The notes under the pieces: model-generated | The model's input: only the letters and a program-made list of their open reading frames with translations | What the model was told of the DNA's origin: nothing | Database searches by the model: none | DNA from: Halopseudomonas laoshanensis | GTDB taxonomy: Bacteria; Pseudomonadota; Gammaproteobacteria; Pseudomonadales; Pseudomonadaceae | NCBI RefSeq assembly: GCF_008365385.1 | Contig: NZ_QOVF01000001.1 | Location: 186,001-250,000 of the forward strand | Length of the DNA: 64,000 nt | Direction: 5' to 3' | Shown here: positions 24,587 through 28,641 of the stretch, one piece after another | How the letters are laid out: every line of letters starts with the position of its first letter | Numbering within the stretch: the stretch's first letter is position 1 | Position numbers and translations under genes: made by a program

Positions 24587-25801
24587 ATGTCAGAGTCGAT
24601 GCAGGTAGGCCGGGCGGATTTCGACCGGGTCATGGTGCCCAATTATGCTCCGGTGGACATGATCCCGGTACGCGGTCAGGGTTCCCGCCTGTGGGATCAA
24701 CAAGGCCGTGAGTATATTGATCTGGCCGGAGGCATCGCTGTCAACGCGCTGGGTCATGCCCACCCTGGGTTGATTGAGGCCTTGACCGAGCAGGCCGGCA
24801 AGCTTTGGCACGTATCCAATATCATGACCAATGAGCCGGCACTGCGTCTGGCCAGCAAGCTGATTGACGCGACCTTCGCCAACAAGGTGTTCTTTGCCAA
24901 CTCAGGCGCTGAAGCCAATGAAGCGGCCTTCAAGCTAGCGCGGCGCTGGGCTCATGAAGTCGCGGGGCCGGACAAGAACGAGATCATCGCCTGCACCAAC
25001 AGCTTTCACGGACGCACACTATTTACCGTCAGCGTCGGTGGTCAACCGAAATATTCCCAGGGCTTTGGTCCGGCGCTGGAAGGCATCAGTCATGTGCCGT
25101 ACAACGATCTGGCCGCGCTCGAAGCGCAGATGTCGGCGCGAACCTGTGCCGTGGTGGTTGAGCCGATCCAGGGCGAAGGCGGGGTGATTCCAGCGGCGAT
25201 GGGGTATCTACAGGCCGTGCGTGAGTTGTGCGACAAATACGATGCGCTGCTGATTTTTGATGAAGTGCAGAGCGGTATGGGCCGAACCGGCAAGCTCTAC
25301 GCTTACATGCATAGCGGCGTGCAGCCGGACATCCTGACCAGCGCCAAGAGCCTGGGTGGCGGCTTCCCGATAGCCGCCATGTTGACCACCAACAAGGTCG
25401 CCAGCCATTTTGGTGTGGGAACGCATGGCAGTACCTATGGCGGAAACCCGCTGGGGTGCGCAGTCGCCGAACGGGTACTGGATATCGTCAATACGCCGGA
25501 AGTGCTTGAAGGTGTTGAGCATCGCCATCAGTTGTTGGTCGAGGGTCTGTTGGCGATTGCCGAAGTCTATCCGGTATTCTCCCGCGTACGGGGCAGCGGG
25601 TTGTTGCTCGGTGCGGTACTCTCTGAAGCCTGGAAAGGCCAGGCCCGGCAGATTCAGGAAGCCGCGCAGCAGGAAGGCCTGCTGGTATTGCAGGCCGGAC
25701 CTGATGTGATACGTCTGGCGCCCAGCCTGATCATCCCCGAGGCCGATATTCAGGAGGCCCTTGAACGTTTGAGTAAAGCCCTGGCCAGGTTGGTCGGTTA
25801 G
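24587..25801 (+). CDS. aruC: Acetylornithine/succinylornithine aminotransferase AruC
   Basis: PLP-dependent class III aminotransferase acting on N-succinylornithine (catabolism) and N-acetylornithine (biosynthesis) in Pseudomonas. It is 404 aa, with [12 protein letters not shown] for cofactor phosphate binding, SFHGRT, the [13 protein letters not shown] aspartate motif, and the Schiff-base lysine K254 in [11 protein letters not shown]. The start follows a GGAGAGCAGGTA site. First gene of the aruC-aruF-aruG unit, 89 bp after argR; aruF follows 19 bp later. In this genome it may serve mainly arginine biosynthesis, because the later catabolic genes are not adjacent. Confidence 0.93.
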
Positions 25802-25820
25802 TATTTTGGAGAGCACCTAG

Positions 25821-26840
25821 ATGCTGGTTCAGCGCCTGAGCAGGATGACGGATCTGCCTGAAATCGAACGCCTGGCTGCGGCTAGCCCGGTCGGCGTGAC
25901 GGCGTTGCCGGCGGATGTTGAGCGCCTGGCGAATATCATCGAGGTGTCGGAAGCCTCCATGGCGGAAGACGTCAGCTTCAGCGGGGAAGAACGTTACTTT
26001 TTCGTCATGGAAGATACGCAAACCGGCCGGCTGGTGGGCTGCAGCAGCATCATCGCTTCCGCCGGCTTTACCGAGCCCTTCTATACCTTTCGCAATGAAA
26101 TGTTCGTACATGCCTCACGTGAACTGGGTCTGCACAACCGCATCCATGTGCTCTCACTCTGCCATGACCTGACCGGGCACAGCTTGCTGGCCGGCTTTTA
26201 TATGCAGCCGGCTTTCCAGCAAGCGTCCTGGGTTGAGCTCAATGCGCGCGGTCGGCTGCTGTTTATGGCCAATCACCCGCAGCGCTTCGCCGAGTCCACC
26301 TCGGTGGAGATTGTCGGCGTCAGTGATGAGCAGGGTAATGCGCCTTTCTGGGACGCGCTGGGTCGGCACTTTTTTGCCGTCAGTTATAGCGAAGCTGAAC
26401 AGATCGGCAGCAGCCGTGGCCGCAGCTTCCTTGCCGAGTTGATGCCCGGCTATCCCATTTACGTGCCGATGCTGTCCGATGCCGCGCAGGAAGTTATTGG
26501 CCAGGTGCACCCATCCGCCCAAGCGATGTTTGACGTGCTGATGCGTGAAGGTTTCGAAACGGATAATTATGTCGACATATTCGACGGTGGGCCGGTAGTG
26601 CATGCCCGCACCGCTGAGTTGCACAGTGCGCGCGATAGCCAGCTGGTGGAAGTTGAAGTGGGCCATCCGGGTGCGGTGACCGGCAACTGGCTGGTGGCTA
26701 ACCAGCGTATTGGCGATTTTCGCGCGGCCTGCCTGGATCTGGCCTGGACACAGAACGAGACACTGGTGCTATCTCGGCATGATGCGGATTTATTGCAGGT
26801 CGCCACTGGCGACCGCCTGCGACTGGTAAGGGGAGCCTAG
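25821..26840 (+). CDS. aruF: Arginine N-succinyltransferase, alpha subunit AruF
   Basis: One subunit of the heteromeric arginine/ornithine N-succinyltransferase (AstA family), which uses succinyl-CoA in the first step of the AST pathway. The 339-aa product begins MLVQRLSRMTDLPEIERLA and has a GNAT-like fold with the family pattern RGRSFLAELMPGYPIYVPML and a FDGGPVVHA segment. It is a clear paralogue of aruG next door (same layout and length). aruG starts 2 bp after its stop. As in P. aeruginosa, activity is expected to need both subunits. Confidence 0.93.
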   Translation: MLVQRLSRMTDLPEIERLAAASPVGVTALPADVERLANIIEVSEASMAEDVSFSGEERYFFVMEDTQTGRLVGCSSIIASAGFTEPFYTFRNEMFVHASRELGLHNRIHVLSLCHDLTGHSLLAGFYMQPAFQQASWVELNARGRLLFMANHPQRFAESTSVEIVGVSDEQGNAPFWDALGRHFFAVSYSEAEQIGSSRGRSFLAELMPGYPIYVPMLSDAAQEVIGQVHPSAQAMFDVLMREGFETDNYVDIFDGGPVVHARTAELHSARDSQLVEVEVGHPGAVTGNWLVANQRIGDFRAACLDLAWTQNETLVLSRHDADLLQVATGDRLRLVRGA

Positions 26841-26841
26841 C

Positions 26842-27888
26842 ATGCTGGTGCGCAGCGCACGACAGACCGATCTTGCAGTGCTGATGCAGATGGCCGCCAA
26901 CGCTGGTTCCGGTTTGACCTCCTTGCCAGCCAGCGAAGAGCGCTTGGCGCGGCGCCTGCAGACCGTGGAGCGCAGCTTCCTCGGCCAGGTTGAGCAAGCC
27001 GATGCCGACTATCTGTTTGTACTGGAGGATCAGCACGGCCAAGTGATCGGTACTAGCGGCATGCTCGCCGCGGCGGGCATGCGCGAACCCTGGTACAGCT
27101 ATCGCATGGGCCTGACGGTGACCGCCAGCCGTGAACTGGGCGTTTATCAGCAGCATCCGACACTGTTTCTGGTCAACGACCTGACCGCAGCGACCGCGCT
27201 GTGCTCATTGTATTTGCCGGCCGAACATCGCCAAAGTGACAAGGGCAGGCTTATCTCCAAGGCACGCTTTCTGTTCATGGCCGAATACGCTGCGCATTTT
27301 TCCGAGCAGGTGATTGTAGAAATGCGCGGTCTGTCCGATGCCGTCGGCCGCTCGGCATTCTGGGATAGCCTGGGCCAGCATTTCTTCAAGATGGATTTTG
27401 CCCAGGCGGACTATCTGACGGGTATTGGCAACAAAGCTTTTATCGCCGAGATGATGCCGCGCTTCCCGCTCTACGCCTGCTTCCTCAGTCAGGCCGCACG
27501 CGATGCCATTGGCCAGGTGCATCCGGATTCCGAGCCGGGTCTGGCCATGGTCAAGGAAGAGGGAATGACCTATCAGGGTTATATCGATATTTTTGATGGT
27601 GGGGCTACCCTTGAGGCGCCGCTGGCGCAAATCCGTGCCGTACGCGAGAGTCAGTTGCTGCTGCTGTCCATCGGCACGCCAGGGGATGAGGCCGAGTCCT
27701 ACCTGGTGCACAATCGCAGCCGCCCTGACTGCCGCATCATCAGTACGCCCGCACGGGTCGCGGCCGGTACGCTGGTGGTCGCACCCGAGGCCGCAGAGCG
27801 TCTGCGATTGCGTGCCGGCACCCTAGTGCGCGCGGTATCGCTGATTGGGCGTGACTCTGCACACCTGCCAGATCCGTACGGCGCCTGA
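26842..27888 (+). CDS. aruG: Arginine N-succinyltransferase, beta subunit AruG
   Basis: Second AstA-family subunit (348 aa), with MLVRSARQTDLAVLMQMA at the start, GNKAFIAEMMPRFPLYACFL in the core and FDGGATLEAP near 245. Its Shine-Dalgarno (GGGGAG) lies inside the end of aruF, and the ATG begins 2 nt after the aruF TAG, so expression should be coupled. In P. aeruginosa the next genes would be aruD, aruB and aruE; here the operon ends and an exported glutathione peroxidase follows 84 bp downstream. The gene itself is full length. Confidence 0.93.
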   Translation: MLVRSARQTDLAVLMQMAANAGSGLTSLPASEERLARRLQTVERSFLGQVEQADADYLFVLEDQHGQVIGTSGMLAAAGMREPWYSYRMGLTVTASRELGVYQQHPTLFLVNDLTAATALCSLYLPAEHRQSDKGRLISKARFLFMAEYAAHFSEQVIVEMRGLSDAVGRSAFWDSLGQHFFKMDFAQADYLTGIGNKAFIAEMMPRFPLYACFLSQAARDAIGQVHPDSEPGLAMVKEEGMTYQGYIDIFDGGATLEAPLAQIRAVRESQLLLLSIGTPGDEAESYLVHNRSRPDCRIISTPARVAAGTLVVAPEAAERLRLRAGTLVRAVSLIGRDSAHLPDPYGA

Positions 27889-27972
27889 CATAACGGGTTA
27901 CAGGCGTACGCTGGGCGGGTCAGGCCATTGCCTTATACTCGGGTGATCATCAGCGCTCACGGAGCTCTACTC

Positions 27973-28515
27973 ATGTCTCACGTCACCCTGCGCTGGGCCT
28001 TGCCACTATGCATGTTGGTCAGCCCGCTGGCGTTCGCCGATTGCGCGGATATTCTCCGCCACGAGCTGCAGGCGCTGCGCTCCAAAGACAGCATCAACCT
28101 GTGTGAGCGGTACGCTGGAAAACCCCTTGTCATCGTCAACACCGCGAGTTTTTGTGGTTATACACCGCAGTTCAAAGGGCTAGAGGCGGTGTTCCAGCGC
28201 TATCGCGAGCGGGGGCTTGAGGTGATTGGCGTACCTTCCAATGACTTTCGTCAGGAAGCGCAGGACAAGGCCGCTATCGCCGATGTCTGTTACGTGAATT
28301 ATGGCGTGACCTTTGCGATGACGGAGCCGCAGCGGATCACCGGTAGCGCGGCGCATCCCTTCTATCGCGATTTAACCGAACAGGCAGGGCAGGCGCCCGC
28401 CTGGAATTTTCACAAGTATGTTCTGGATCGTGACGGCAAGGTTGTCGGCAGCTTCCCCAGCAAGGTCTCGCCGGAAGACCCCGAGTTCATCAAGGCCATC
28501 GAGTTGGCGCTCTGA
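27973..28515 (+). CDS. Exported glutathione peroxidase family protein
   Basis: Thiol peroxidase of the GPx family, predicted periplasmic. The start chosen (ATG 27973, with GGAG 9 nt upstream) yields 180 aa with a signal peptide of about 22 residues ending in LAFA before DCADIL. The peroxidatic cysteine is C61 in [12 protein letters not shown] (no selenocysteine). The usual catalytic Gln of the NQF motif is Asp (D91 in PSNDF), while the WNF tryptophan (W144) and asparagine are kept. It stands where arginine-catabolism genes would be expected and precedes alaS. The reductant (glutathione or thioredoxin-like) cannot be told. Confidence 0.88.
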
Positions 28516-28552
28516 CTATGGCGGCAATAGAGAGATTAAGCCTAGCGCATGA

Positions 28553-28581
28553 TGCATGTGCGGCGCTGATGCCTATATAAT
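28553..28581 (+). promoter_or_regulatory. Probable sigma-70 promoter of alaS
   Basis: A perfect -10 hexamer TATAAT (28576-28581) with a GC-rich stretch just after it. The hexamer at 17-bp spacing (TGCATG, 28553) is a poor -35. Predicted start near 28588, about 54 nt before the alaS ATG. Confidence 0.5.
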
Positions 28582-28641
28582 GCGTCCCTAATTCCGCCTG
28601 CGCTGTCTAGCGCAGGCACACCCGATTCTGGTAAGGGACCT

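Follow-up and report, generated by a model that had tools for sequence, protein, structure and literature searches.

Why would a bacterium keep the first enzyme of a degradative pathway without most of the rest? The question is raised by a 64,000-nucleotide stretch of DNA from Halopseudomonas laoshanensis (genome G000, contig C1, positions 186001–250000, hereafter the window; G, C, and L numbers denote genomes, contigs, and loci), part of a 4.1-Mb genome whose assembly is 100% complete. The aruCFGDBE locus encodes a textbook route, the arginine succinyltransferase (AST) pathway, which has five steps, and the window contains aruC, aruF, and aruG but not aruD, aruB, or aruE. The results described below indicate that marine Halopseudomonas bacteria, which have lost the genes for three of the four subsequent steps, have probably retained the first-step enzyme of the arginine pathway under selection for some other route.

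The AST locus of H. laoshanensis ends after aruG

All features of the locus lie on the + strand. The aruC gene (positions 24587–25801), for an acetylornithine/succinylornithine transaminase, encodes a product that matches the TIGR03246 model at 685 bits (cut-off 610), and it is followed by aruF (25821–26840) and aruG (26842–27888), which encode the alpha and beta subunits of arginine/ornithine succinyltransferase. AruG scores 431 bits with TIGR03244 (cut-off 391) and AruF scores 443 bits with TIGR03245, just below the cut-off of 459; both subunits are above the cut-off for TIGR03243 (284; AruF, 394 bits). The conserved right-hand neighbor alaS occupies positions 28642–31263, and aruC, aruF, aruG, and alaS are all intact. 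The locus therefore shares with the P. aeruginosa-type aruCFGDBE operon the order argR-aruC-aruF-aruG, the presence of alaS downstream, and the AruC, AruF, and AruG families, and differs from it in lacking aruD, aruB, and aruE (here and genome-wide) and, in AruG, a near-invariant glutamate, Glu119.

A first-pass annotation of this DNA had listed argR, aruC, aruF, aruG, and alaS as being in place. Model matches bear this out for the last four, and the AraC-family regulator gene upstream (23481–24497) owes the name ArgR to its position: the best NCBIfam model for its AraC-type product is GbdR, at 294 bits against a cut-off of 480, and the gene occupies the same place in all seven long Halopseudomonas loci. 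The same annotation was correct that aruD, aruB, and aruE are missing from their expected site, as the interval between aruG and alaS (27889–28641) contains a peroxidase-like gene only. It had proposed that the later genes might have moved elsewhere. When the complete assembly was searched with profiles, there were no matches to aruB/astB and none to aruE/astE, and the search for aruD/astD returned only 12 aldehyde dehydrogenases with scores of 135–253 bits against a cut-off of 579. Relocation of the three genes is therefore ruled out for this genome, and its proposal that the pathway is cut short holds as far as gene content is concerned.

Parsimony places the loss of aruB before the radiation of Halopseudomonas

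An adjacent aruF-aruG pair was found in 37 of the 37 Halopseudomonas genomes searched and aruB in none of them. Because of this distribution the loss is old, and parsimony places the loss of aruB before the genus radiated; a recent, strain-level deletion is ruled out by the genus-wide occurrence of the short form. The aruD and aruE genes were likely also lost before the radiation, as judged from fewer genomes. A joined AruB+AruE+AruD query was run against 33 genomes, 19 of them Halopseudomonas, and no more than 20 candidates were scored in each. In the 19 of 37 genus genomes queried for aruD, the matches listed were aldehyde dehydrogenases only, at 31–35% identity, a level that other aldehyde dehydrogenases also reach in genomes with the full operon. 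No aruE was among the matches listed for the 18 of these genomes other than that of H. laoshanensis; the listed matches ended near E 3e-48, and a divergent copy could score less well than that.

Loci were compared in 30 Halopseudomonas genomes, since 7 of the 37 gave no locus; the seven named loci L039–L045 repeat genomes within these 30, such that the 37 genus rows in our AruG and AruF alignments represent 30 genomes. The order aruC-aruF-aruG-alaS was present in all 30 loci. The gene between aruG and alaS in the window (27928–28515) encodes an exported glutathione peroxidase-like protein with a GSHPx domain, and its start is likelier to be the ATG at 27973, ahead of a signal-peptide-like stretch. 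A peroxidase gene lies at this site in 6 of the 30 loci (L009, L010, L012, L014, L015, and L018) and is absent from it in the other 24, among them the locus of H. pelagia CL-AP6, a close relative whose AruG is the nearest to that of the window in the named genome collection (97% identity). The distribution rules out this gene as the cause or the scar of a deletion; the peroxidase is a patchy neighbor and a separate matter from the loss of aruDBE.

Remnants of aruB were sought by local alignment of the gaps to the aruB genes of relatives, with 30 single-base shuffles of each as controls. Five Halopseudomonas aruG-alaS gaps contained no convincing aruB scrap (the best excess over the 30 shuffles was 1 score unit, over 14 bases), and there is none in the interval 27889–28641 of the window. 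The deletion suggested by the first-pass annotation is thus not a local one. Its remark that the short form would be ordinary if most relatives had it holds for the genus, where aruB is missing from 37 of 37 genomes, but not for the family, where 79 of 148 sampled genomes have aruB. As a separate observation, the Pseudomonas abyssi locus L042 has between aruG and alaS (~9160–9440) a segment of ~270 bp with inverted-repeat ends that looks like a small mobile element and that, in a by-eye reading, the nearly identical locus L041 of H. pachastrellae lacks. A literature search with little coverage of subscription papers yielded no report of a truncated Halopseudomonas aru operon.

The absence of aruD, aruB, and aruE from the H. 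laoshanensis genome, and of aruB from the genus, would be expected if the product of AruFG, succinylarginine or succinylornithine, were an end product made for overflow, export, or detoxification, since none of the three genes would then be needed. Such a use is improbable: nothing supports it directly, it would be costly in succinyl-CoA, and apart from the peroxidase the aruC-alaS stretch of the compared loci contains no additional gene from the sets searched for, exporters not having been sought as such.

aruF and aruG are under strong purifying selection

If aruF and aruG were relics in the course of being lost, as the disappearance of three other pathway genes might suggest, their reading frames and substitution patterns should reveal decay. 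All 30 genus genomes examined have complete AruF and AruG frames; in two AruG frames the stop is at residue 337 or 340, beyond the conserved region. Median identity within the genus is 69% for AruF and 72% for AruG. In a simple pairwise count over five pairs from seven genomes (L009/L010, L009/L011, L010/L011, L014/L015, and L022/L025), dN/dS was 0.015–0.058 for aruF and 0.011–0.091 for aruG, compared with 0.014–0.030 for the last 150 codons of aruC and 0.008–0.030 for part of alaS in the same pairs. Excluded from these ranges are L026/L037 (dS 1.0–1.8; aruF 0.041, aruG 0.037), L012/L040, whose members are identical, and L041/L042, which is a repeat pair. In six pairs of short-form loci from two other genera (g9 and g17; g numbers denote genus groups), the corresponding values were 0.045–0.265 for aruF, 0.087–0.164 for aruG, and 0.077–0.196 for alaS.

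From these results, we conclude that aruF and aruG are under strong purifying selection and are not decaying. With the pair kept in all 37 genomes, the idea that they are relics is refuted in the main, and we give it very little credence. It is on this selection that we favor the remaining suggestion of the first-pass annotation, that AruFG has another use.

Later aru genes have been lost repeatedly in Pseudomonadaceae

The distribution of the short form was analyzed in tool-drawn samples of 148 Pseudomonadaceae and 370 gammaproteobacterial genomes. In the family sample, AstA-family genes are present in 107 genomes, and all 79 genomes with aruB are among them; the 28 that have AstA and lack aruB consist of 19 Halopseudomonas genomes and nine others (G009, G077, G085, and G093 of g9; G016 and G032 of g16; G017, G044, and G056 of g17). 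The class sample has AstA in 27 genomes, 22 of them with aruB, and the five without it are G000, G183, G263, G368, and G453 (G183 is 93% complete, which makes its missing astB less certain). A 23rd astB row in this sample, scoring 19 bits, comes from G513, which has no AstA.

The full order argR-C-F-G-D-B-E-alaS was found at six loci (L058, L061, L062, L063, L066, and L068), two of which (L061 and L062) have an ltaE-like gene ahead of alaS. Partial forms differ in what they keep: C-F-G-alaS in G017, G044, and G056 and in the two g16 genomes, one of the latter with ltaE; C-F-G-E-alaS in the four g9 genomes; and C-F-G-B-alaS in G033 (g17). In G013, the locus is C-F-G-B, and D and E lie behind a further AstA-family gene on another contig (the two parts are at C3 ~388196–390718 and C2 ~242005–245446). 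Second AstA-family loci are not rare, as more than two AstA-family matches were found in 7 of the 148 family genomes (G013, G030, G101, G123, G127, G132, and G137). These other short forms resemble Halopseudomonas in keeping aruC-aruF-aruG, with later genes lost in place and alaS behind. They differ in that AruG keeps the glutamate in 10 of 10 and in that aruB scraps scoring above all shuffled controls are present in five of the nine short-form relatives, namely G017 and the four g9 genomes; scraps were borderline or absent in G044, G056, G016, and G032. By our own reading of the sequences, a small look-alike open reading frame stays in the gap in g9, g13, g16, and g17.

In an alaS tree of 24 loci, chosen and not a random draw, four changes of aruB state are needed and are forced by well-supported branches; we read this tree as implying five or more losses if aruB was never regained. 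An AruFG tree also needs four changes, three of them forced by well-supported branches. AruFG sequences cluster by genus group (g1, g9, g16, and g17) in the tree built from them, with 8 of 23 inner branches open, and the alaS tree splits g9, placing two full-operon members with g16. The grouping of AruFG by genus points to vertical descent, and horizontal gain of a short operon is unsupported.

Putative active-site residues of AruFG have changed in Halopseudomonas

In AruG, Glu119 (AruG residues are numbered as in L062; the equivalent in E. coli AstA is position 121, four residues ahead of Leu125) is replaced by Ala in 30 of 30 Halopseudomonas genomes. The residue is Glu in 22 of 22 AruG proteins from outside the genus and in E. 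coli AstA. Of another 27 AstA-type sequences, taken from the class sample, 26 have Glu and one, L079, from a genome that has astB (G486), has Val. The 12 rows labeled canonical in the AruG comparison set are mixed, as L046 lacks aruB, L060 has neither aruD nor aruE at the locus, and the compared stretches of L047 and L048 contain an incomplete operon. The conservation of Glu119 suggests that it is a defining AstA/AOST feature, and its change to Ala may alter catalysis or specificity.

A second position concerns the histidine that corresponds to His229 of AstA, termed a predicted catalytic residue in one study (PMC12375414). This residue (AruG His227) is kept in AruG of 30 of 30 Halopseudomonas genomes. 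At the same place in AruF, 13 of the 30 genomes have His, 8 have Arg, 8 have Asn, and 1 has Asp, such that the histidine is lost in 17; H. laoshanensis AruF has it, as do 21 of 22 AruF proteins from outside the genus. Where AruG-type proteins have the Glu, every genus row of AruF has Leu. Glu and His occur together in AruG outside the genus and in no Halopseudomonas subunit.

These changes, together with strong selection on both subunits even in a pair whose AruF has lost the histidine (L022/L025), would fit an AruFG that has been re-aimed and either acylates a different amine or forms a regulatory or structural complex, unrelated to arginine degradation. We regard this as the main rival to the explanation favored below, possible if rather unlikely. 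The retention of His227 and of 64 AruG columns that are invariant across 59 rows (7 of them repeats) argues against it, as does the operon, which still puts AruFG behind AruC; the Val in L079 further suggests that the glutamate is dispensable. One form of this idea holds that AruFG is a succinyltransferase or other acyltransferase whose active site has changed to accept a new amine, in an undescribed route starting behind AruC, and that AruFG was freed from aruDBE several times in Pseudomonadaceae. We consider this unlikely; if true, it would mean that a second function of AruFG, masked by arginine degradation, is common.

Succinyltransferases without AstB in other operons

Elsewhere, AstA-family genes occur in operons that lack astB. 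On the conjugative Klebsiella pneumoniae plasmid p1_020151 (L116, positions 1887–9521), genes for an ornithine cyclodeaminase and the citrulline hydrolase CtlX are found with astC, astA, astD, and astE, and the gene arrangement leaves no room for astB. At the Pseudomonas ceruminis locus L046 (5741–11653), aruC-F-G-D-E lies behind transporter genes, and a 22-residue scrap of aruB is present between D and E (10501–10566; 73% identity, E 3e-6). This locus looks like one in which AruB alone was discarded, the pattern expected if entry had switched from arginine to ornithine. Both operons resemble that of Halopseudomonas in having the transaminase and the succinyltransferase without AruB/AstB, and differ from it in that aruD/astD and aruE/astE are present and the succinyltransferase keeps the glutamate. 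In the plasmid search for AstA, Klebsiella accounted for 45 of 84 records, one of which was examined in detail; tiny plasmids with astA were also found in the insect symbionts Candidatus Pantoea carbekii (NZ_CP010908.1, 14.6 kb) and Candidatus Ishikawaella (NZ_AP010873.1, 9.1 kb).

A further parallel is the second, partial ast operon of Acinetobacter baumannii, astNOP (PMC12375414). As described there, it has an AstC/AstA-family pair without D, B, and E in the operon, like Halopseudomonas, and in growth tests AstO served ornithine, being needed for growth on it, and AstA served arginine. A. baumannii differs in that it also has a full astCADBE operon, of which Halopseudomonas has none, and AstO is likened to AruFG by description, not by sequence.

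Operons of another kind begin with a gene for an M20 hydrolase of the PRK07338 family. In G368 (L104, 8106–12881), G453 (L105, 7787–12618), and G183 (L106, 7975–12730), this gene, the product of which is over the model cut-off, is followed by astA, astD, and a ureohydrolase-family gene, without astB; G263 (L103, 7444–11152) has the M20 hydrolase gene, astA, and astD. In Legionella adelaidensis (L117), the PRK07338 hydrolase gene comes first and is followed by astA, astD, and astB, the last in the ureohydrolase's place, and no astE lies within the stretch examined. Judging from gene position, an M20 hydrolase can apparently replace AstE/AruE, and AstB can apparently be bypassed. The operons with the ureohydrolase-family gene look like a variant of the AST pathway in which the desuccinylase is replaced and either arginine enters through an arginase or the ureohydrolase acts on succinylarginine.

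One could extend this to Halopseudomonas and suppose that unrelated enzymes complete its arginine pathway at all three missing steps, including that of the dihydrolase. The ureohydrolase-family gene at the site of L. adelaidensis astB in three of the four astB-less loci, and the M20 hydrolase gene at the head of all five operons, lend this some plausibility. No such gene is present at the locus in the window, and an E. coli-type agmatinase query (SpeB, a ureohydrolase) had no match in the H. laoshanensis genome, the PRK07338 family not having been sought in Halopseudomonas; we think a complete replacement pathway quite improbable.

A possible ornithine-directed route

The explanation that we tentatively place first is that AruC was kept for arginine synthesis and that AruFG is an ornithine-directed succinyltransferase with unlinked downstream enzymes. 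Ornithine entry is ranked first because AstA occurs without AstB in ornithine-type operons and because AstO serves ornithine (PMC12375414). According to this proposal, an ancestor of Halopseudomonas with a complete argR-aruCFGDBE-alaS locus would have lost aruD, aruB, and aruE, leaving the genus with aruC-aruF-aruG to the present. AruC would have been retained as the only close acetylornithine aminotransferase, serving arginine synthesis, and AruFG as a working succinyl-CoA:amino acid succinyltransferase. By acting on ornithine rather than arginine, AruFG would make AruB unnecessary, and AruC would convert the resulting succinylornithine to succinylglutamate semialdehyde. The job of AruD may then have been taken by one of ~12 unlinked aldehyde dehydrogenases and that of AruE by an unlinked ArgE/DapE-type M20 deacylase.

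The gene content of H. laoshanensis is in part consistent with this proposal. Homologs of ArgA (52% identity) and ArgE (46%) are present, and no close ArgD-type enzyme other than AruC was found, which would account for the retention of aruC. Genes for arginine deiminase (arcA), carbamate kinase, and ornithine carbamoyltransferase lie side by side on contig C12, a cluster that would make ornithine from arginine, and an arginine decarboxylase (45% identity) is also encoded. A scan for ArgR sites in the window with a consensus, a weak test, gave no exact match and a single one-mismatch site at 23315, directly behind a thiolase gene and not ahead of aruC.

Several observations weigh against the ornithine-directed route. 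A second class-III aminotransferase (39% identity to AruC, the next best match; TIGR00707, 342 bits against a cut-off of 410) exists and could share the ArgD role with AruC. NCBIfam classes the two aldehyde dehydrogenases closest to the AstD model as succinate-semialdehyde dehydrogenases, inspection of two aldehyde dehydrogenases and their neighbors on contigs C12 and C10 yielded no succinylglutamate-specific candidate, and no replacement for AruD or AruE was identified in the genome. Loss of Glu119 as a mark of ornithine use is unsupported, as the Klebsiella plasmid AstA, L046, and the ten short- or partial-form relatives keep the glutamate. G033, in which aruB is kept, aruD is gone, and aruE was not found, runs opposite to the pattern expected from an ornithine switch. 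The ureohydrolase-family genes of the M20 operons score under every NCBIfam cut-off, which makes their arginase label a guess. Finally, arcA was found in 19 of 37 genus genomes (2 above the curated cut-off, 16 somewhat below it, and 1 fragment), so ornithine made by arginine deiminase cannot explain the retention of AruFG everywhere. The same count leaves unsupported the simpler idea that AruFG is kept only alongside the arginine deiminase route.

Implications

It is unsafe, at least for the whole genus Halopseudomonas, to deduce arginine degradation from aruF and aruG (or astA) alone. The genus constitutes a natural experiment in which the enzyme is present and, in the genome examined, three enzymes exclusive to the pathway are absent. 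The repeated survival under selection of the first enzyme without most of its pathway points to a role of AruFG that the standard pathway masks.

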